From positions 1-36,656 of the forward strand of contig CAMCXP010000005.1 in assembly GCA_945883395.1 (NCBI GenBank): DNA of 36,656 nucleotides, given 5' to 3'. Made by a program: the position numbers and the translations under genes. The DNA is from Melioribacter roseus P3M-2 (GTDB lineage Bacteria; Bacteroidota; Ignavibacteria; Kapaibacteriales; Kapaibacteriaceae). Positions 8,021-20,354 of this stretch are shown in pieces. The notes beneath the pieces are model-generated. The model did not search any database, had not been told where the DNA came from, and saw only the letters and a list, made by a program, of their open reading frames with translations. Each line of letters starts with the position of its first letter. Positions within the stretch are counted from its first letter, which is position 1.

Positions 8021-11000
8021 ATGAAGTTTGGTCGACACCTTATGGCGATCCTTGTGGTCGGCCTTGCTCTGGCTGCATCTGCCATGGCAACTCAAACACG
8101 CATGCCGCTGCGCGGCGTGGGCTTTATTGCAAATGCTGGACAGTGGCCGTCCCACGTGCTCTATGCCGTGCGCCAGCCAGGCGCAGTGGTGTGGATTACG
8201 ACCACAGGCGTAACTGTTCAGGACGCATCGGTCACCGAGCTCGACGTGCACGGTACGGTGTCGCAGCAGACGCTGCTGGTGAACGGACGTACTGTTCAAC
8301 TCCGACCGGTCAATGGTGCGGCCGTAGCGACGGCGACCTATTTCACGCCGGAGCACCCAGCGGGCATTACGGTTCCGGCATACGACCGCGTGGTGTTCCC
8401 AAACGTGGCACCGGGCGTGACAGTCCAGTTCGCTCTCACGGCCGATGGCCGTGTCGAGCGCACGATCGCGTCGATGTCGTCGGAAGCTCGTGCAGCACTG
8501 ACGATCGCAAGTGACCGCGGTGACGATACTCGCGCAATTCAGGCAACACCTCCAACATCGTTTGTGTACGGCGCCTACATCGGTGGATCCGAGTTCGATG
8601 TAGTGGCAGGTATCGAAATGCTCAATAATGGCGACGTTGTTGTTGCGGGCTCGACGCTTGGTCTGAGCTACCCGGAAACTCTCGGTACATACCGCAAGAC
8701 GAAGTATGGTCTGCTCGACGCATTTGTGATGCGTTGTGATGCGCAGCTCACGCGCGTTTTGGGCTACACATACTATGGTGGTAGTGGTGACGACCGTGTA
8801 CGCGCGATGTCGAAGGCCGATGCGAACGGCGTTGTGATCGTTGGTGAAACACGTTCGAATGATATCCCAACGACAACATCCGCGACAGGCAAGACGTATA
8901 AGGGTTCACTCGACGCATTTGTTGCTTCATTCGATTCGACACTGACAAAGCTTCGCACTGGATTCTATCACGGCGGAAACAACGACGACATCCCGCGCGG
9001 AGTGGACGTTGACCAGTATGGCACGATTGTGATCTGCGGCAGTACGCTGTCGACAACGGGGATGACAGTGACCGCGCCGGCGACATCGACGCTGACGTGG
9101 ACGTACCGTGACGGCAACCGCACGCGTACTGCAACAGTGAACTTGACGAGTGGGCGCACGCTTGCTGGACAGACCGATGGATTTGTCGCGACATTTAATG
9201 CGGCTGGTACAATTCAGCAGTCGCGTTACTACGGCAAAGCAGGAGTGGAATATTTCAACTCTGTGGGATTTGATGGCCTTGGTCGGATTATCCTAACGGG
9301 CACGACCAATGCCACAGACTTTGAAGCGGTACCTGCCTTTGCGACTACATGGGATGGACGTCTTCCATACGACAGAACGTACAACGGCGGCGCATCGGAT
9401 GCATTCGTCATTCGCTTCAATGCGTCGATGGCCTTTTCGCAGACAGATGATGACAGCTTCGCGACGCTGCTTGGTGGTAATAAGGACGATGAAGGTGTCT
9501 TCGTGAAGGTCGACGAAAAGGGGAAGATTCACATTATTGGTGCGACGACGTCGACGAACATGCCAACAGAAGGCTCGTTCTCTGCATCGAACCTCGGACG
9601 TAAGGATGCGTTCTACGCAGTGCTCGGTGTTGACGGCGGAAGTCTGAGTGGTTGTGCATACGTCGGTGGGTCTGGTGACGACACGCCGTATGCCGCGCGC
9701 TTGAGCGAAACAAGCTCGAGCGTTACGATTGCAGGTACCACGACATCGTTGGATTACCCAGTTGTCGGTGATGGCGCAAGCGACGCAGTGCAGGGTCCGA
9801 CGGATGGATTCGTAACAACAGTTAACCTTGGTTCGATTGTTAACTCCACGCGTGTTACTGGTCTGCTTGCCGATACCGTCGTTGGCGTTCAGCTCAACAA
9901 GTATGGCTATCCATTCTATGCCGCAAACACGACGTCAGCGGATCTGCGTACGCACGATTCAACATTCGGCAAGGCATCGTCCGGACCAAAGGGCTACATC
10001 GGGAAGATTGCCTACGGTACAATTGAGCTCACGCTGCCGGTTGAGGGCAACGTGCTCTGCATCGATAAGACATATCCTGTGACATGGGCCATCAATGGTG
10101 TGAATGATACTGTACGCTATCGCGTGCAGTTCGCGCCATTTGGCAAGGACACATGGACAGACCTTGCAAAGAGTGTTCTCGGACGCAACTACCAGTGGAA
10201 GATCCCGAAGATTGCGTTGGGTGAGTATGTGGTGCGCGTCACAACGATGCACGGTCATGAGACGAAGCTTCTTGCTCCGTTCGTTATCTCCGACAAGCCA
10301 ACAATCGTCCGTCAGCCAGTGAATGCTAGCGCGTGCGTCGGACAGCCCCTTGCGTTGTCGATCGAAGCGTCTGGTCCGGGCCTAACCTATCAATGGCGCA
10401 AGGCTGGAACAGCGATTGCTGGTGCTACGCAGCCAACGTTCTCCATCACAGCAGTCGATGCATCGTCGAGCGGTTCATACGACTGTATCGTTACCGGAAC
10501 ATGTGCGCCAGCGGTAACGTCAACAGCAGCAACTGTATCGGTAGCAACGCAGACGGCGATCACAACGCAGCCATCCAATGTGTCGGTCGAAGAGAAGAAG
10601 GGCTTCACACTCACAGTCGTAGCTTCGGGATCGAACCTCACCTATCAGTGGAAGAAGAACGGCGAAGCGATCACTGGTGCAACAGCTGCATCCTACGCAG
10701 TAGCATCAGCTGCGAAGTCTGATGAAGGGGCCTATGTCTGCGACGTCACTGGAGGCTGTGGTGCTATCACAACAGCTGTTGCACAAGTTGTGGTAACACC
10801 AACAACGAGCGTGTATGACGATGTAACTGTGACGGGCGCTCTGGCTTCGATTGTCGGACCTCAGCCTGCTGCCTCGTCGGTGTACATCAAGGTCAACCTT
10901 GGCGCAACGTCCGACGTTGTGATCACTGTGCTCGATCTACAAGGGCGTCGCGTCGCACAAACGCTCGCTGGTAGTCTTGTTACAGGTGTGCACATCCTAC

Positions 11001-11095
11001 CTGTCGATGTTGCCGCATGTGCATCTGGTGTGCATCGCCTCGAGATTGCAGCTGGTGCTCAGCGCATCACACTCCCAATCACAGTGGCGCGCTAA
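8021..11095 (+). CDS. SBBP-repeat, Ig-like, T9SS-exported surface protein
   Basis: A complete 1024-residue protein. Residues 1-23 are a signal peptide (MKFGRHLMAILVVGLALAASA). About 30-165 resemble the domain that precedes SBBP repeats (GFIANAGQWPSHVLYAVRQPG). About 175-650 hold repeated units of the form YIGGSEFDVVAGI, YYGGSGDDRVRAM, YHGGNNDDIPRGV, YVGGSGDDTPYAA, each followed by a DAFV strand: SBBP beta-propeller repeats. About 660-750 is another beta-domain, 755-840 and 842-925 are Ig-like domains (LTYQWRKAG...GSYDCIV; LTYQWKKNG...GAYVCDV), and the last 85 residues form a T9SS type A-like sorting domain (VITVLDLQGRRVAQTLAG). It should be exported through T9SS and displayed on the cell surface, perhaps in adhesion or polymer binding; that role is inference. 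A -7 box lies 49 bases upstream. Confidence 0.88.
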   Translation: MKFGRHLMAILVVGLALAASAMATQTRMPLRGVGFIANAGQWPSHVLYAVRQPGAVVWITTTGVTVQDASVTELDVHGTVSQQTLLVNGRTVQLRPVNGAAVATATYFTPEHPAGITVPAYDRVVFPNVAPGVTVQFALTADGRVERTIASMSSEARAALTIASDRGDDTRAIQATPPTSFVYGAYIGGSEFDVVAGIEMLNNGDVVVAGSTLGLSYPETLGTYRKTKYGLLDAFVMRCDAQLTRVLGYTYYGGSGDDRVRAMSKADANGVVIVGETRSNDIPTTTSATGKTYKGSLDAFVASFDSTLTKLRTGFYHGGNNDDIPRGVDVDQYGTIVICGSTLSTTGMTVTAPATSTLTWTYRDGNRTRTATVNLTSGRTLAGQTDGFVATFNAAGTIQQSRYYGKAGVEYFNSVGFDGLGRIILTGTTNATDFEAVPAFATTWDGRLPYDRTYNGGASDAFVIRFNASMAFSQTDDDSFATLLGGNKDDEGVFVKVDEKGKIHIIGATTSTNMPTEGSFSASNLGRKDAFYAVLGVDGGSLSGCAYVGGSGDDTPYAARLSETSSSVTIAGTTTSLDYPVVGDGASDAVQGPTDGFVTTVNLGSIVNSTRVTGLLADTVVGVQLNKYGYPFYAANTTSADLRTHDSTFGKASSGPKGYIGKIAYGTIELTLPVEGNVLCIDKTYPVTWAINGVNDTVRYRVQFAPFGKDTWTDLAKSVLGRNYQWKIPKIALGEYVVRVTTMHGHETKLLAPFVISDKPTIVRQPVNASACVGQPLALSIEASGPGLTYQWRKAGTAIAGATQPTFSITAVDASSSGSYDCIVTGTCAPAVTSTAATVSVATQTAITTQPSNVSVEEKKGFTLTVVASGSNLTYQWKKNGEAITGATAASYAVASAAKSDEGAYVCDVTGGCGAITTAVAQVVVTPTTSVYDDVTVTGALASIVGPQPAASSVYIKVNLGATSDVVITVLDLQGRRVAQTLAGSLVTGVHILPVDVAACASGVHRLEIAAGAQRITLPITVAR

Positions 11096-13296: not shown

Positions 13297-13304
13297 TATC
13301 TTTG
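13297..13304 (+). promoter_or_regulatory. Putative -7 promoter box directly before the ATG
   Basis: TATCTTTG matches TAnnTTTG and ends five bases before the ATG at 13310. A transcript starting the usual few bases after the box would have almost no leader. There is no clear TTTG -33 box. Confidence 0.45.
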
Positions 13305-13309
13305 CATCC

Positions 13310-13612
13310 ATGCTTCGCCCCTTGGCCACCATCGTGCTTCTTTGCTTCGTGCTCGTTCTGAGCGCTGGGGCAGTGCATGCACACGGTGGTGAGATCTTCA
13401 AGGCGGAGCACATTGAGCAATGCCACCACAACGATGCGCACGATGCGTGTGCGCTCTGCGACGTCACCAAGGACGTACACACAGCGATCGTGTTCGAGCA
13501 TCATGTCGTGATCGACATGGTTGGCACGGCGCATGAGCCGCTAATCGCCAACATGGTCAGCGATCGATGTCCGCTCCAACAACCCGGTAGAGCGCCCCCT
13601 ACAACCATCTAA
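13310..13612 (+). CDS. Small exported His/Cys-rich protein, possible metal-binding
   Basis: A 100-residue protein hidden in the longer track ORF 12881-13612. I start it at the ATG 13310, because only this gives a signal peptide (MLRPLATIVLLCFVLVLSAGAVHA) and because a -7 box stands just upstream. The mature part begins HGG and holds a CHHNDAHDACALC cluster, then EHH and AHE: ten His and five Cys in 100 residues. That composition suggests binding of a soft or borderline metal such as Zn, Cu or Ni in the periplasm. It is followed after 59 bases by a TonB-dependent receptor and its lipoprotein, both with His clusters. I do not recognise a named family; small periplasmic metal carriers of the DUF2946 type are a loose comparison only. 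Confidence 0.68.
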   Translation: MLRPLATIVLLCFVLVLSAGAVHAHGGEIFKAEHIEQCHHNDAHDACALCDVTKDVHTAIVFEHHVVIDMVGTAHEPLIANMVSDRCPLQQPGRAPPTTI

Positions 13613-13671
13613 CCACCCTCGGCATGCGCTGCTACGGCAGTGCATTTTGTCCATTCCTGGTGTGATGAGTT

Positions 13672-15996
13672 GTGATTGCTCTCTTGGCGCTCCTTGCGCT
13701 CTTTGATGTGCACGTGCATGGTGTTGTACGTGACACAGCCACGCGTGAACCCCTTCATGCTGCTACAATCCGTGTAATCGGTACAACACGTGGTACTGTG
13801 TCGGACCGCAATGGTGTGTTTCACCTACACGATGTTGCGGGCGATTCGGTGCTGTTGCAGTTCTCGCACGTTGGCTACACAACGAAGCGCATGATGCTTG
13901 CGCTAGGCGGACGTGATGATGTGCGCATCGAGGTGCTGCTTGTACCTTCGCAACGCCGATCCGAAGGCGCAGTGGTGGTCGAATCACGCACATCGCATGG
14001 GTCGAGCGCGCTGCCCACGCAACACGTTACCGAACTTTCTGCCACGCAGATTGATGAGCATCGTGGACAAACCTTTGCCGATGTTCTCACGCGTGTGCCG
14101 GGCGTTACGGTTGTGCAGACCGGACCAAGTATTAGCAAGCCCATGATCCACGGCATGATGGGGCAGCGCATCGTCCTGCGTAACCATGGCGTTGTGCAGG
14201 AGGGTCAACAATGGGGCGCCGAACACGCACCGGAAATCGATCCATTCACACCTGCGCGCATCGCTGTTGTCAAGGGGCCTGCATCGGTGATGTACGGACC
14301 CAACGCAATGGGCGGCGTGATCGATGTCTTGCCGCGCCCCCTCCCACACGATGACGTGATGCATGGCGAAGTTTCGGCAAACCTCTTCTCCAACTCCGGT
14401 CAAGGGGCTATCGGTGGCTTTCTCGAAGATCGCATCTCCGATAGTCTTTCGATTGGCTATCGGGTGCAAGGGGCCGTGCGACGTGCCGGTGATGCACGAA
14501 CACCAACATACGTGCTCGGCAATACCGGGTTCAGCGAGTGGAGCGTCGGAAGCACCGTAGGCATTGGAGATGACGATCTCGGCATGACCGTCATGGGATC
14601 GTTGTACGCTACAACGCTTGGTGTGTTCGCCGGATCGCATCTCGGCAACGCAGAAGACTTACGTCGCGCTATTGAGCGTGGACGACCATCAACCTCGCCG
14701 GCGTTCGGGTACGAAATCACGAGTCCGCGCCAGGAAATCTCCCACACGTTGCTCTCGATGCAGGGACATGCACGCGTGCACGACGATGCAGTGCTGCGCG
14801 TGACGTATGGATGGCAGCAGAACGATCGGATTGAATACGATGCACATAACACGCGCATCATCGGACCCGACTCTGCCGCACGACTGCAGCGTGCATTACA
14901 AACCCCAGCAATGAACTTGCTGCTCACCACATACACGCTCGATACAAAGCTCGAACATGATCTCGCGAAGAACATCCGCGGGACGGCGGGTATCAGTGCG
15001 CAGCGACAGGTGAATGATCGAAGCGGGACAGTCTTCCTTGTGCCAGACTACGTCGCATGGGGTGTAGGGGGTTTCGCCTACGAATCACTCATGCTTGACG
15101 ATCTTACGCTAAGCGCTGGCGTGCGGTACGATGTGCGCTGGCTCGACGTGTCGATTCAGCGACGTAACACCTCTGCTCGTGAAGAGCAGCAGCGCACCTT
15201 TGCATCGGTTACGGCAAGTGCTGGCGCACTGTATGCGTTGAGTGAGGAGCAGTCCATCGGACTCAATATTGCCCGCGCGTGGCGTCCGCCGCAAGTGAAC
15301 GAGCTCTACGCTAATGATGTGCACCACGGAAGCGCGCTCTACGAGATCGGCGACAGCACGTTGCACGAAGAGCGATCAGTCGGCTTCGATGCAACCTATG
15401 CGCTCTCGACACCGTCCGTCGAGGTCGAAGTTACGGCGTATGCCAACCTGTTTGATGGATACATCCTCGCACTCCCCGATCCATCACGTCCGACAATAAC
15501 CGTGCGTGGTACGTTCCCAACGTATCGCTTCACACAAGTGCCAGCGTTGCTCGCTGGTGGCGACGTCTCGCTGCGCGTACATGTCACGGGTGGTGTGCAG
15601 GCGTATGCAACATCCAGCATCGTGCGCGGCACCGATACCCGCGCAGACGAGCCGCTGTTCCTTATGCCGAGTGATCGTGCGCGACTTGGCATGCACATTC
15701 ACACGGAGGATGTGTGGCATGTGCACGATGCATTTGTTGATGTGAGCGTACTTGGTGTTCGTCGACAGGACCAGTATGTGGTCGGACAAGACTATGCTGC
15801 GCCTCCGGCAGATTATGCATTGCTTGATGCTTCCCTCGGTGGCATGATCGATCTCGCGCCATCGGTGCAGATGCGGATTACGATCTCCTGTACGAACATC
15901 CTCAACACGCAGTATCGCGACTATCTCAACCGCTATCGGTACTTCGCCGATGATCCCGGACGCAATATCATTCTTCGTTTTACCACCATTTTCTAA
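13672..15996 (+). CDS. TonB-dependent outer-membrane receptor, probably for a metal or metal complex
   Basis: 774 residues. The only usable start is a GTG at 13672, since an in-frame TGA lies at 13666-13668. The signal peptide is short and lacks an N-terminal positive charge (MIALLALLALFDVHVHG). Residues about 13-92 form a CarboxypepD_reg-like domain (GVVRDTATREPLHAATIRV). About 120-225 is the plug, with TFADVLTRVPGVTVVQTGPS, PMIHGMMGQRIVLRNHGV, EGQQWGAEHAPEIDPF and VVKGPASVMYGPNAMGG. The rest is the 22-strand barrel ending with FADDPGRNIILRFTTIF. The EGQQWGxEHAPEIDPF plug type is, to my recollection, a Bacteroidota group that travels with a small lipoprotein like the one next door. MHIHTEDVWHVHD is a His cluster in the barrel. 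It is energised by TonB-ExbBD, not encoded here. Substrate is inferred from neighbours. Confidence 0.87.
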   Translation: MIALLALLALFDVHVHGVVRDTATREPLHAATIRVIGTTRGTVSDRNGVFHLHDVAGDSVLLQFSHVGYTTKRMMLALGGRDDVRIEVLLVPSQRRSEGAVVVESRTSHGSSALPTQHVTELSATQIDEHRGQTFADVLTRVPGVTVVQTGPSISKPMIHGMMGQRIVLRNHGVVQEGQQWGAEHAPEIDPFTPARIAVVKGPASVMYGPNAMGGVIDVLPRPLPHDDVMHGEVSANLFSNSGQGAIGGFLEDRISDSLSIGYRVQGAVRRAGDARTPTYVLGNTGFSEWSVGSTVGIGDDDLGMTVMGSLYATTLGVFAGSHLGNAEDLRRAIERGRPSTSPAFGYEITSPRQEISHTLLSMQGHARVHDDAVLRVTYGWQQNDRIEYDAHNTRIIGPDSAARLQRALQTPAMNLLLTTYTLDTKLEHDLAKNIRGTAGISAQRQVNDRSGTVFLVPDYVAWGVGGFAYESLMLDDLTLSAGVRYDVRWLDVSIQRRNTSAREEQQRTFASVTASAGALYALSEEQSIGLNIARAWRPPQVNELYANDVHHGSALYEIGDSTLHEERSVGFDATYALSTPSVEVEVTAYANLFDGYILALPDPSRPTITVRGTFPTYRFTQVPALLAGGDVSLRVHVTGGVQAYATSSIVRGTDTRADEPLFLMPSDRARLGMHIHTEDVWHVHDAFVDVSVLGVRRQDQYVVGQDYAAPPADYALLDASLGGMIDLAPSVQMRITISCTNILNTQYRDYLNRYRYFADDPGRNIILRFTTIF

Positions 15997-16013
15997 CACA
16001 CTCAGAGGTTTCG

Positions 16014-16589
16014 ATGAACATTACCACATTCACCCAGCGATTTGCTCCGCTTGCTGCGATCGCGATTATGGCCCTCGGGCTCAGCGGGTGCTCGGAGCGC
16101 GTGCAGGACCCGCACGATCACGCAGATCACGACGTTGTGACAACGATCGAGATCGAGCTCACGGCATCCGATCCAACAGTTCCACGACAGATCGTGACGT
16201 GGGAAGATCTTGACGGTCCGGGCGGGGCAAACCCGAACCGTATCGACACTGTCGTGCTGGTACCTGGGATGACATACACCGGAAGACTGCGTGTCGCCAA
16301 TCGATCCGTGTCGCCTGCTGAGGATCTCACGCCGACGATCGAGGCCGAGCGGGATAACCACCAGTTCTTCTATCAGTTAAGCGATGGCCTTGGCGCGCTG
16401 ACGATCACTGACAAGGACAGCCGTCAGTTGCCTGTCGGATTGGCATTTGCGCTGAGCCAGAGTGGCTCTGCTCCTGCCGGTACAATGTCGGTACAGCTGT
16501 CGCACTTCGATGATGCGTCGACGAAAAACGGCACCACGCCGAGCGACGAGACCGACGTTTCGGTTGTATTCCCGGTAGTTGTGCGATAA
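16014..16589 (+). CDS. TonB-receptor-associated lipoprotein with His-rich N-terminus
   Basis: 191 residues. The signal ends in a lipobox (LGLSGC), followed by SERVQDPHDHADHD, a metal-binding-looking segment, and then one beta-rich domain: TIEIELTASD, IVTWEDLDGPGG, YTGRLRVANRSVSPAEDLT, NHQFFYQLSDG, ITDKDSRQLPVGL, and ETDVSVVFPVVV at the end. I recall this pattern as a conserved Bacteroidota lipoprotein encoded beside TonB-dependent receptors of the EGQQWG plug type. It begins 17 bases after the receptor stop with AGAGGT-like ribosome-site sequence, so the two are co-transcribed. A likely role is a surface or periplasmic partner that captures the ligand for the receptor. The hairpin at 16603 may end the transcript. 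Confidence 0.8.
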   Translation: MNITTFTQRFAPLAAIAIMALGLSGCSERVQDPHDHADHDVVTTIEIELTASDPTVPRQIVTWEDLDGPGGANPNRIDTVVLVPGMTYTGRLRVANRSVSPAEDLTPTIEAERDNHQFFYQLSDGLGALTITDKDSRQLPVGLAFALSQSGSAPAGTMSVQLSHFDDASTKNGTTPSDETDVSVVFPVVVR

Positions 16590-16602: not shown

Positions 16603-16634
16603 GAGCACGCCGCATACTATTTTGCGGCGTGCTC
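16603..16634 (+). promoter_or_regulatory. Perfect hairpin overlapping the start codon of the nuclease-fusion gene
   Basis: GAGCACGCCGCA and TGCGGCGTGCTC form a perfect 12-bp stem around TACTATTT. The right arm contains the GTG start at 16629. There is no T-tract after the stem, so it is a weak terminator for the lipoprotein gene, and it could instead hide the start codon and limit translation of the downstream operon. Confidence 0.5.
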
Positions 16635-18392
16635 ACGACCCCACTCGATCAAGTTCGGTTTGTCGTTGTTGACGTCGAAACCACCGGCGGCAAGGCTCAT
16701 GATCATCGCATGACCGAAATCGCGATGTGCGTGGTCGAGGACGACGATATCGTGCGTCGGTACGAGTCGCTGATGAATCCGCGGCAGCCGATCCCAGACT
16801 TCATTCAGTTGATGACCGGCATCACGGAAGACATGGTGCGTGATGCGCCAGACGAAGATGCCGTGCTTCCGACGATCGCGGCAGAGCTTGGCGCAGGTGA
16901 TCAGGTGGTAGTCTTCGTCGGACACAATGTCGGGTTTGATTGGAGTTTCGTCAGTCATGCCATCCAGCGCATGGGCGAGCCGGTGCCAGACGTCCCGCGC
17001 CTCTGCACCTGCCGTCTCTCGCGACGTCTCAGCACTGGTCTGGCAAAACATAATCTTGGCATTGTTGCAGAGCACTACGGTTGCACGATCACAGCCCGCC
17101 ACCGAGCGATGGGTGATACGGAAGCGACTGCAAAGGTGTTGATCAAACTGATTGAGCGCGCACGATCAGAGCACGATGCCGCGACGCTCGGCGACTTGAT
17201 CGAACTTCAGCACGCGCAACGTCAACTCCCACCGACGAAGTCCAATCAACGCGTCAAGCAACTCCTTGCACCGCGTCTTGCTGAAGTGCCTGATGAGCCC
17301 GGTGTGTACTACTTCCTGAACACCAAGAAGAACACGCTCTATATCGGTAAGGCAAAGTCGCTTCGCGACCGTGTGCGTCAGTATTTCCATGAAGGTCCGC
17401 TGCACGGCAAATCCGTGCAGAAGATGATTCGGTATATCCGGCACATCGAGTGGGAAGTAACAGGGACCGAACTTGGTGCGATGTTGCTCGAATCACGCGA
17501 GATCAAGACCAAGCGTCCGCTCCATAACCGAGCAAGCCTGGAGTATCATGCGCCCGCGTTCCTGAAGATCACATCGGAAGACTTTCCACGACTTGAGCTT
17601 GTGCACCGGATTGAGGACGACGGAGGCGAGTACTTTGGTCCGTTCCGGAGTCAGCGCATGGCCGAGCGCATCCGCGATATGGTTGTGCGGGAGCACCAAC
17701 TCCGCACGTGCAATGGGGCACTGTTCCCGCATGCCGACGTGAGGCCATGCTTCGACTACCACATCAAGCGCTGCCTAGGTCCGTGTGCACTTCACCAGAC
17801 AATTGACGACTACCGGCAGTCTATCGACGACGCACGCAGATTCCTGATGAACGTACAGACCGGAGCGATTGGACGCCTTTCGATGCAGATGGAGGAAGCT
17901 GCGCTCGATCTTGACTTCGAACGTGCGGCAATGCTGCGCGACGGAATCAAGGAAATCGAACGTGCTACTCTACATGGCACCGATCGTCCGCTCGCTATCA
18001 CCGACACCAATGTTATCATCATGATCCCGACCAGTGATCGGTATGCGACGGTGGAAGTCTATGCGCTGCGTGCAGGACGACTCATGTATCAGCGCGTGAT
18101 CGGCACGGCTGCTCCGCGCGAACCACTCATCGACATGCTCATGGACGTCTTCCAACGTCCAGCACCCCGTGGCGGGTTTACCGATCGCGAACTTGATGAG
18201 CTCCAGATTATCACATCGTGGTTGTATAGACGTCGTGAGCGCGCAACAACGATAGTTGTGCGCGACGTTGACCAACTCCCATCTGAACTCGATGTGACAT
18301 TGAATCAGTACCGTCGCGCTGATCCCGAGGACGTTGTTACTCAACGGTCCGAATACTCACAGCTACCGGAACACGATGACTACGGTGTTTGA
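16629..18392 (+). CDS. DEDDh 3'-5' exonuclease fused to GIY-YIG (UvrC/Cho-like) endonuclease
   Basis: A 587-residue two-nuclease fusion. Residues about 9-175 are a DnaQ-type exonuclease: FVVVDVETTG (Exo I Asp and Glu), GHNVGFDWSF (Exo II Asp) and HRAMGDTEAT (Exo III His and Asp). Residues about 217-295 are a GIY-YIG endonuclease in the UvrC form: DEPGVYYFLNTKKNTLYIGKAKSLRDR, with LLESREIKTKRPLHN. Then come the UvrC cysteine block CFDYHIKRCLGPC and a UVR motif (LDFERAAMLRDGI, about 425-440). The RNase H-like and HhH parts of full UvrC are missing. Similar fusions are known in actinobacteria and Bacteroidota as DEDD exonuclease/GIY-YIG proteins. A role in nucleotide-excision-type repair is likely but not shown. 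The GTG start is the only frame-consistent choice before the exonuclease motif. It overlaps selU by 17 bases. Confidence 0.9.
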   Translation: MLTTPLDQVRFVVVDVETTGGKAHDHRMTEIAMCVVEDDDIVRRYESLMNPRQPIPDFIQLMTGITEDMVRDAPDEDAVLPTIAAELGAGDQVVVFVGHNVGFDWSFVSHAIQRMGEPVPDVPRLCTCRLSRRLSTGLAKHNLGIVAEHYGCTITARHRAMGDTEATAKVLIKLIERARSEHDAATLGDLIELQHAQRQLPPTKSNQRVKQLLAPRLAEVPDEPGVYYFLNTKKNTLYIGKAKSLRDRVRQYFHEGPLHGKSVQKMIRYIRHIEWEVTGTELGAMLLESREIKTKRPLHNRASLEYHAPAFLKITSEDFPRLELVHRIEDDGGEYFGPFRSQRMAERIRDMVVREHQLRTCNGALFPHADVRPCFDYHIKRCLGPCALHQTIDDYRQSIDDARRFLMNVQTGAIGRLSMQMEEAALDLDFERAAMLRDGIKEIERATLHGTDRPLAITDTNVIIMIPTSDRYATVEVYALRAGRLMYQRVIGTAAPREPLIDMLMDVFQRPAPRGGFTDRELDELQIITSWLYRRRERATTIVVRDVDQLPSELDVTLNQYRRADPEDVVTQRSEYSQLPEHDDYGV

Positions 18393-19311
18393 CGATCTGC
18401 GAGATCCACAGTACGCCATCATCGATGTGCGTTCACCTGCTGAATACCAGCAGGGACACATTCCAAATGCAATCAACATCCCACTCTTCAGCAACGACGA
18501 GCGTGCGCATGTAGGCACGCTGTACGTGCAGCAGGGTGCAGCGATCGCCTTCGACGAAGGCTTGCGCTATGTCGGTTCGCGCATGCTTGAACTCGTCCAA
18601 CGTGCGCGTGCCCTCGACCGTCCACTCATCGTCTACTGCTGGCGTGGTGGCATGCGCAGCTCATCGGTCGCATGGCTCTATGCCGCTGCTGGATTGCAAA
18701 CACGCATCGTACCACGCGGGTACAAAGGCTTCAAGGCGTGGGCGCGAAATGTGATTGCACAGCCTTGGAAGTATCATGTGATCGGTGGAATGACCGGTGC
18801 CGGCAAGACTGATTACTTGCATGACCTAATAGGGCGTGGTGAACAGGCCCTCGATCTTGAAGCACTAGCTCATCATAAGGGATCAGTTTTCGGAGCAATG
18901 GGTCCTCAGCCGACAACCGAGCACGTACATAACATGATTGCAATGTCTCTAGCATCGTGCGACCCCTCGCGTGAGATCTTCATTGAAGATGAAAGCAGGC
19001 CCATAGGAACAGTGTATCTTCCTGAGGTGCTCTTCGATGCCATGCAGTCAGCTCGGATGACGACGCTTGACACGCCACGCGAAGAACGCATTGCTCGCTT
19101 AGTGCGCGACTACGGTGAAGTTTCTGCTGAGATGTTGCTCTCTGCATTCTCTCGCATAGAGCGCAAGCTCGGAGGAGAGCGATATGCACGTGCGTGCGAA
19201 GCTGTTGCAGCAGGCGACCTCGCTACTGCAGCAGACCTTGCATTGTCGTACTACGACGCGACCTATGCATACTACCACAAACGACGCATCACCAACACAA
19301 TAGTACCATGA
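18376..19311 (+). CDS. selU: tRNA 2-selenouridine synthase
   Basis: 311 residues (also called MnmH/YbbB). It uses selenophosphate to convert 5-substituted 2-thiouridine at the wobble position of Lys, Glu and Gln tRNAs to 2-selenouridine through a geranylated intermediate. The N-terminal rhodanese domain ([20 protein letters not shown]) carries the catalytic cysteine at about residue 88 in [12 protein letters not shown]. The C-terminal part holds a P-loop ([10 protein letters not shown], about 137-146) and the family block [17 protein letters not shown] start at the ATG 18376 (MTTVFDDL) because the 14 residues added by the track start precede the rhodanese domain without homology. The start lies inside the nuclease gene (17-base overlap) and the stop overlaps the selD ATG by four bases, so supply and use of selenophosphate are co-expressed. 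Confidence 0.93.
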
Positions 19312-20354
19312 CCGCATCTACCTATCGGCTAACGCAATACTCGCACGGCGCTGGCTGTGGATGTAAGATTTCTCCATCAGTGCTCGACACCATCTTGCAT
19401 TCGACGTTTGTTGCGCCGCATGATGCGCGGTTGCTCGTGGGCAATGCATCACGCGATGATGCAGCTGTGTACGACCTTGGTGATGGTACGGCGGTTGTGA
19501 GCACGACGGATTTCTTCATGCCCATCGTCGACGATCCTGTTGACTTTGGTCGGATCGCTAGTGTGAACGCAATCAGCGATGTCTATGCAATGGGCGGTAC
19601 GCCGATGATGGCTATTGCCGTGTTGGGTTGGCCCGTCAATACGGTGCCAGTCGAGGCTGCACGCTTAGTTCTGGAAGGGGCGCGCATGGCGTGCGCCGAG
19701 GCGGGTATTCCACTTGCAGGCGGACATAGCATCGACAGTCCGGAGCCGATCTTTGGTCTGGCTGTTACGGGGCGAGTAGCATTGGAGCATCTCAAAACAA
19801 ACACAGGCGCCGTGGAAGGCGACGTGTTGTTTCTCACCAAACCGCTTGGAGTAGGCATCCTCACCACGGCCGAGAAGAAAGGCGTGCTGCAACCCGAGCA
19901 CGCTACATGGGCGCGCGACGTGATGGTGAAACTCAATACGGCAGGTGCAGCGTTTGGCGCATTGCCATACGTGCATGCGATGACCGACGTCACGGGGTTT
20001 GGTTTGCTCGGACACTTAGTGGAGCTTGCCGATGGCGCATCGTGCACTGCGTTGCTCGACGCATCAGCGGTGCCACTCATCGATGATGCCGCGATTCGTT
20101 CCTACGTCGCACAAGGCTGCGTGCCTGGTGGTACCAATCGCAATTTCGCAGCGTATGGTCATCGCATCAGTGCGCTCACAGACGAGCAACGTGCGGTGCT
20201 ATGCGATCCGCAAACAAGCGGTGGACTGTTGGTGAGTGTCGATCCTGCGCATGTTGATGCATTCGTTGCGGTATGTGCGCAGAACAACACACTGTCAGCT
20301 GCTCCGATCGGCGTAATGTCAGCTCGAACAGAGGTCGCTGTTCAAGTAGGTTAA
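19308..20354 (+). CDS. selD: Selenophosphate synthase, cysteine form
   Basis: 348 residues. SelD makes selenophosphate from selenide and ATP, the selenium donor for SelU just upstream. The start at 19308 gives [15 protein letters not shown], with Cys17 and Lys20 in the same numbering as E. coli SelD; both active-site positions are ordinary codons (TGT and AAG), so it is not a selenoprotein itself. ATP-binding motifs follow: [64 protein letters not shown] and [11 protein letters not shown]. The track start at 19194 lies inside selU and is wrong. Neither selA, selB nor tRNA-Sec is seen in the window, so the visible selenium use is tRNA modification. The stop shares the TTAA sequence with the convergent gene. 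Confidence 0.95.

Follow-up and report, generated by a model that had tools for sequence, protein, structure and literature searches.

A probable zinc-acquisition operon headed by a putative metal-sensing arrest-peptide leader in Melioribacter roseus P3M-2

The operon and its proposed control

We analysed a contig of 36,656 nucleotides from Melioribacter roseus P3M-2 (CAMCXP010000005.1, contig 5 in an assembly of 168 contigs with a completeness of 88.7%), which is called the window in its whole length. Three genes for exported proteins lie next to each other on its forward strand and encode a protein of 100 amino acid residues (13310-13612), a TonB receptor (13672-15996) and a lipoprotein (16014-16589), as a preliminary description of the DNA had noted. 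We propose that they probably form a zinc-acquisition operon under a metal-sensing arrest-peptide leader, the 100-residue protein. The proposal is drawn from sequence analysis, namely from the conservation and spacing of the leader, its association with the receptor, a ZnuD-type site, the alternation with an operator and a predicted RNA fold; on this basis we infer that the ribosome is arrested, that the ligand is zinc, in which direction the switch works and by which route it acts.

In the proposed mechanism, the leader would be the first ORF to be translated and would be directed to export. Under zinc shortage, its nascent chain would stall its own ribosome at the RAPP motif, with Pro96 in the P-site and Pro97 in the A-site. 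This ribosome would occupy the 5' arm of an mRNA stem by which the GTG start codon of the receptor gene is otherwise kept inaccessible, such that receptor and lipoprotein are made. With enough zinc present, the metal would be bound by the HxH and CxxC motifs; the CxxC lies 43 residues ahead of RAPP and would therefore have just left the ribosome or be within the translocon. Metal binding would end the arrest by force or by a change of fold, and the ribosome would terminate at the adjacent stop codon. The stem would then re-form, or Rho would terminate transcription, and the receptor would be switched off.

Conservation of the leader peptide

The open reading frame (ORF) of the small protein starts with ATG and is nested within a mechanically called ORF of 243 residues, which agrees with the preliminary description; the gene to its left is divergent. 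The product carries a signal peptide, HxH, CxxC and a C-terminal GRAPP and resembles the upstream ORFs (uORFs) of the CruR/CutF arrest-peptide type. The gene is under purifying selection, with a synonymous divergence (dS) of 0.108 and a non-synonymous divergence (dN) of 0.013 against the related locus L003, and of 1.04 and 0.21, respectively, against L004. Given these values and the one profile match in its own genome, which is at this locus, the ORF is a real gene. Upstream of it, TATCTTTG at 13297-13304 on the forward strand is a promoter-like element that fits TAnnTTTG, which we take to be the -7 promoter element of the Bacteroidota. With 5 nt between this element and the ATG, no other ORF is likely to come before the leader on the mRNA, which would be nearly leaderless from a presumed transcription start. 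Of 99 leaders, 45 had a TAnnTTTG within the preceding 110 nt, compared with 7 of 99 shuffled sequences, and its start was mostly at -10 to -20.

The leader ends with ...QQPGRAPPTTI, and the codons of R94-A-P-P97 (13589-13600), the predicted ribosome-arrest motif, are 3 residues from the stop. RAPP close to the C-terminus is a ribosome-arrest motif in the literature. The GRAPP ending had been absent from the preliminary description and was decisive for our interpretation. Relatives of the locus were gathered by searching for the receptor and then inspecting the equivalent position; the named relatives in the genome collections are Ignavibacteria or Bacteroidota bacteria. A leader was present at 103 of 166 receptor loci, spread over the phylum Bacteroidota.

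When the conservation of the Cys and His residues was checked in 29 leaders at the level of the order, only H23, H25, C47, C50, P96 and P97 were invariant, and M1 and R94 exceeded 90%. The mean column identity was 21%, the body between the motifs was not conserved and every leader had a hydrophobic N-terminus. The H23-A-H25 codons (13376-13384) lie at the end of the signal peptide and the C47-A-L-C50 codons (13448-13459) encode the CxxC. In all 74 leaders with a CxxC its distance to RxPP was 40-48 residues with a median of 43, the value in the window and in most of the order relatives. The motif, mostly 2-7 residues from the stop, was RAPP in 53 of the 103 leaders, RGPP in 44, and RSPP, LAPP and KGPP in 2 each. 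The codons of R, A, P and P were all variable among the leaders, and therefore selection acts on the peptide and not on the DNA. In a control, R[AG]PP occurred within the last 25 residues in 0.11% of 5324 other ORFs and in none of the 430 of those with a CxxC. A search blind to the motif, using CxxC, His and hydrophobicity, returned 74 leader-like ORFs, 72 of which end in RxPP.

The leader profile found one copy per genome, and this preceded the receptor in 14 of 15 genomes, so that the small protein is indeed conserved beside the receptor; in the fifteenth the copy is ahead of a His-rich lipoprotein. At L266 (G030:C27:4000-9500) a leader with HxH, CxxC and RGPP is followed by a His-rich lipoprotein (CSEDHTHAPGEHFEAEG), and no such receptor was found in that genome. 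The Pfam family DUF2946 (PF11162) matched the leaders of 15 of the 29 relatives at E <= 1, the best at 2.4e-8.

Phylum-wide, a CxxC at the normal distance is missing from 29 of the 103 leaders, and a good number of these have a single-Cys HxHC-like site; such leaders are common in Chitinophagaceae, Hymenobacter and Pontibacter. At L066, L067, L072, L078, L108, L110, L111, L117 and L180 this site takes the place of the CxxC at about the same distance from RGPP. These leaders precede receptors of the same family, and their site may be another form of the sensor. HxH and CxxC together would offer four ligands, a common arrangement for zinc.

The leader was compared with CruR (bp2923) of Bordetella pertussis, an exported DUF2946 uORF before the TonB receptor BfrG, whose CxxC and RAPP are 45 residues apart and are both needed for control of the receptor (PMC9426467). 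Copper sensed by the CxxC relieves the arrest at RAPP, and Rho then ends transcription (PMC9426467). In vitro, CruR was shown to arrest when Pro3 of the motif occupies the P-site and Pro4 the A-site (PMC12992588). Both are short exported uORFs, first in the operon, with a CxxC and a C-terminal RAPP about 45 residues apart and a TonB receptor as the next gene. The small protein is thus most likely an arrest-peptide leader of the CruR/DUF2946 type. We read it as a regulatory leader because of the conserved metal site and R[AG]PP at fixed spacing, its position as the first ORF and its alternation with a Zur-type operator, described below.

The receptor and the choice of metal

The receptor gene (13672-15996, forward strand, GTG start) encodes 774 residues. 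Pfam matches were obtained to Plug (3.6e-17), TonB_dep_Rec_b-barrel (1.4e-21) and CarbopepD_reg_2 (3e-14), the last of these being a carboxypeptidase-regulatory-like domain at the N-terminus. ZnuD was the best solved relative by profile (1.2e-39) and the best fold match of the predicted structure (8.4e-36, the top four matches) at 16-17% identity. The receptor thus groups with ZnuD and not with carbohydrate or siderophore receptors. The zinc ligands of ZnuD are D99, H100, E340 and H499 (PMC4557270). In the HMMER alignment, where the ZnuD chain numbering is shifted by 14 (D113, H114 and H513), D99, H100 and H499 align with E184, H185 and H551 of the receptor, and E340 is outside the alignment. 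All 165 receptors compared, leader-bearing or leaderless, have H185 and H551 and carry E or D at position 184. The receptor did not reach the cut-off of NCBIfam NF038289 for ZnuD (86 versus 950 bits) and is therefore called ZnuD-like, not a ZnuD orthologue. In the plasmid collection used for proteobacterial comparison, 17 weak matches to the receptor were found, which were of no help.

Many receptors without a leader have TTGCAACNNNGTTGCAA directly upstream at a nearly constant position. In eight such genomes, the palindrome core had 32 matches, both strands counted, compared with 1 for the reversed control pattern. Other neighbours of the box were the zinc metallochaperone GTPase ZigA (9.2e-169), the zinc metallochaperone AztD (5.8e-34), a Fur-family regulator, MerC and a lipoprotein resembling that of the window; one neighbour was SCO1-like (L139). 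In an order-level relative, a second, Zur-like Fur-family gene beside a MerC-like gene has TTGCAAATCATTTGCAA in front, and in L022, L032 and L034 the TTGCAAATCATTTGCAA box precedes the leader. Since the box precedes ZigA, AztD, the Fur-family gene and MerC, and the Zur-like gene has TTGCAAATCATTTGCAA in front, we read it as a putative Zur box, the metal of the regulator being taken from the regulon.

Among the Cytophagales-type genomes (L139-L168), the TTGCAACNNNGTTGCAA regulon comprises the Fur-family gene, ZigA, AztD, MerC, His-rich lipoproteins and further TonB receptors, and also an exported protein of 147-149 residues with a MAQCFFCG motif (L155, L166). It looks like a Zur regulon, and we found no description of it. 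At L140 (around 1500), a lipoprotein of the family of the window's third gene has a Zur-type box of its own.

These data were used to weigh the view that the leader is an ordinary CruR, sensing copper and controlling a copper receptor as in Bordetella. The two motifs of CruR and their spacing are present in the window leader, copper receptors of the OprC type are often preceded by CruR homologues, and the SCO1-like gene is a neighbour of the box. However, the copper site of OprC is CxxxM-HxM (PMC8610252), and such a site is absent from the receptor, which has C740 as its sole Cys and no CxxxM in the plug, whereas the ZnuD ligands align and persist. The orthologous receptors sit in the regulon of the ZigA, AztD and Fur type. 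Moreover, our leaders have an invariant HxH in addition to CxxC and RAPP, the only motifs named by Roy et al., and many leaders of Chitinophagaceae, Hymenobacter and Pontibacter have the single-Cys site. Because the OprC site is missing and the orthologues belong to a zinc regulon, we rejected the reading as a copper receptor, and we consider copper sensing by an ordinary CruR unlikely. Zinc is the metal best supported for the locus by these comparisons, in line with the earlier reading as a metal-uptake locus, which the conserved metal ligands of the leader and the ZnuD-type receptor support. Because the genomic evidence favours zinc, we file the leader as CruR-like with a metal that is probably different.

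Alternation of the leader with a Zur-type box

The 166 receptor loci were then sorted by leader and box. Of the 103 with a leader, 85 had no box and 18 had a box-like site ahead of the leader; of the 63 leaderless loci, 44 had a box and 19 did not. The collections share some of these loci (e.g. L012 and L043), and identical receptors were dropped for the tree only. A box adjacent to the receptor was found in 0 of 103 loci with a leader and in 44 of 63 without (Fisher p 1.8e-25), where a box was scored from 11 of 14 matches, a cut-off chosen in this analysis by which weak sites may be misjudged. On the tree of 161 receptors, 22 changes in the presence of the leader were needed. In 20 independent pairs differing in the leader, the box differed in the opposite direction in about 8 and never in the same direction (p about 0.008). 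This exchange within one receptor family speaks against a split into two receptor types that differ in their metal. Related bacteria appear to keep the same receptor under a Zur operator instead of the leader or together with it.

The preliminary description had suggested that the small protein could deliver metal in the periplasm, and we weighed the possibility that it is a secreted binder capturing or passing on metal there. The signal peptide, HxH, CxxC and the position in the operon would fit, and CutF was initially conjectured to be a copper chaperone (PMC9426467). However, an invariant R[AG]PP 2-7 residues from the stop, a fixed spacing of 43 residues and alternation with an operator would all be unnecessary for a chaperone. 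The sequence between the motifs is not conserved, exported CutF is rapidly degraded and CruR is thought to be short-lived. Conservation is thus limited to the four-ligand site and the arrest motif; together with the spacing and the alternation, this led us to reject metal delivery as the main role and to consider the binder very improbable. A second role of the regulatory leader as a secreted metal binder is possible.

Predicted mRNA structure over the receptor start

The gap between leader and receptor in the window is 59 nt. In the predicted fold of the mRNA (13590-13687, forward strand), the RAPP codons and the end of the leader (13590-13615) pair with the region of the receptor start (13658-13681), with an inner hairpin at 13621-13651, and the start codon (13672-13674) pairs with 13600-13602. 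The minimum free energy was -50.8 kcal/mol with a z of -4.68, and 0 of 200 shuffles were as good. The GTG start had a predicted unpaired probability of 0-0.11 in RNA free of ribosomes, which rose to 0.66-0.76 once 13582-13612 was covered by a ribosome stalled on RAPP. In the window operon, a stalled ribosome is thus predicted to expose the start codon of the receptor.

L003 and L004 retain the pairs with the start codon; the inner hairpin of L004 shows a change on both sides, yet other pairs are broken. Contacts between leader end and receptor start were predicted in 46% of 99 loci and in 19% of shuffles, which moved two-base blocks and are a rougher control than dinucleotide-preserving shuffling. 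Sequestration of the start codon, clear in the window and weak on average, is unsupported as a general rule in the relatives. No Rfam family was found between leader and receptor up to E = 1. Our best guess is a translational route for the window operon, not a general law; in other species Rho or another route may operate.

The stem was also considered with respect to CutF of Rhodobacter capsulatus, which is located upstream of the multicopper oxidase CutO, with a stem-loop that covers the ribosome-binding site of the following gene (PMC9973294). CutF and the window leader share export, a metal motif, a proline-rich stalling motif and a stem-loop before the next gene that is or would be opened by the stalled ribosome. 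The 59-nt gap and the stem over the receptor start are closer to CutF than to CruR, which has 162 nt and Rho. CutF has a CxxxC and activates on copper; the window leader has CxxC, HxH and RAPP with an importer downstream. The window leader might act with the opposite sign, metal binding prolonging the stall and turning the downstream genes on, as in Rhodobacter. However, a high-affinity zinc importer switched on at plentiful zinc makes little sense, and a repressor-type box is found at the orthologues. We give this mode hardly any credence and keep to relief of the arrest by metal.

The partner lipoprotein and neighbouring genes

The third gene (16014-16589, forward strand) encodes a lipoprotein of 191 residues with Cys26 in the lipobox. 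Of the 158 loci long enough to include it, at least 75 have it after the receptor by a strict criterion. Invariant in 19 lipoproteins were Cys26, Asp65, His116, Asp133, Asp135 and Asp181, H116 being the sole invariant His. The model was beta-rich and confident (predicted local distance difference test, pLDDT, 86), with no match in the PDB below E = 0.001. The lipoprotein is presumably an outer-membrane partner of the receptor. The three His clusters pointed out in the preliminary description are all in the sequence; HxH of the small protein is conserved, but DPHDHADHD of the lipoprotein is not, and the MHIHTEDVWHVHD His pair of the receptor (H675, H677) is widely variable in the family.

Three further regions of the window were inspected by reading. 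The 587-residue protein at 16629-18392 apparently has a DnaQ-like exonuclease domain and a UvrC-like GIY-YIG part, read by eye with no profile. At 18334-20354, genes resembling tRNA 2-selenouridine synthase and selenophosphate synthetase suggest the use of selenium. A secreted protein of 1024 residues at 8021-11095 shows repeats, Ig-like stretches and a possible C-terminal sorting domain.

Discussion

Arrest-peptide control of such receptors is already known for copper; the link to zinc and the exchange with Zur were not encountered in the arrest-peptide papers that were searched. RAPP/RGPP uORFs with a signal peptide before TonB receptors are said to span Gram-negative bacteria (EMBO J 2025, PMC12992588), and the window operon shares the signal peptide, the C-terminal motif and the downstream TonB receptor with this class. 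Many Bacteroidota CutF-like proteins and TonB-like neighbours have already been counted (PMC9973294). In the arrest-peptide papers PMC12992588, PMC10987492 and PMC9973294 the word zinc has a count of 0; in the main text of the PMC12992588 survey neither zinc nor Zur is mentioned, and the survey describes no exchange of leader and operator. The discussion of PMC9426467 names Zn once. DUF2946 genes already have a link to zinc-related operons, as two operons that they head were changed in a Caulobacter zur mutant (PMC4176598), and no riboswitch is known for copper or zinc (Roy et al.).

Compared with CruR, the window receptor is ZnuD-like with a zinc-type site and not OprC-like, the leaders add the invariant HxH, orthologous operons carry the Zur-type box, and the third gene of the operon encodes a lipoprotein. 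ZnuD of Neisseria (4rdr; PMC4557270) is the best structural and profile relative of the receptor, and three of its four zinc ligands align; the window receptor differs by its extra N-terminal carboxypeptidase-regulatory-like domain, the lipoprotein partner and the arrest leader.

Several observations weigh against a zinc-sensing arrest leader. The window leader matched DUF2946 only at E 0.31 and 12.2 bits (cut-off 23.7), and part of the leader count came from a search demanding an RxPP-like motif. The mean predicted change in start-codon exposure was near zero across the 99 loci, and the CxxC of the described relatives binds copper. L005, L010, L013, L015 and L016 are receptors of the window family with neither a leader nor a Zur-type box. 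A Zur-type site, which the preliminary description had proposed to look for upstream, occurs at the 44 leaderless orthologues but not at the window locus, and no TTGCAANNNNNTTGCAA was found in the window's genome. This genome has one Fur-family gene, which is orthologous across the order and adjoins topA and speA. Given this, zinc is assigned to the window copy by orthology and by the receptor site. Direct Zur control of the window operon was rejected on the absence of the box at the locus, and the leader is the only control that we found there.

We lean towards the wider view that a zinc-sensing arrest peptide is widespread in the Bacteroidota, where it would control a ZnuD-like receptor and repeatedly replace Zur or be layered under it. 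The sensor site would vary, R[AG]PP and its spacing would be kept, and in the lineage of the window the peptide would be the main zinc control of the operon.

If this is true, a family of small hypothetical proteins would be re-annotated from putative chaperone to regulator. Zinc would gain a co-translational sensor, where the known metal-responsive arrest leaders are for copper, and the control of zinc uptake without Zur at this operon would be explained in many Bacteroidota. A repressor site and an arrest leader would then have been repeatedly exchanged in evolution on one transporter.

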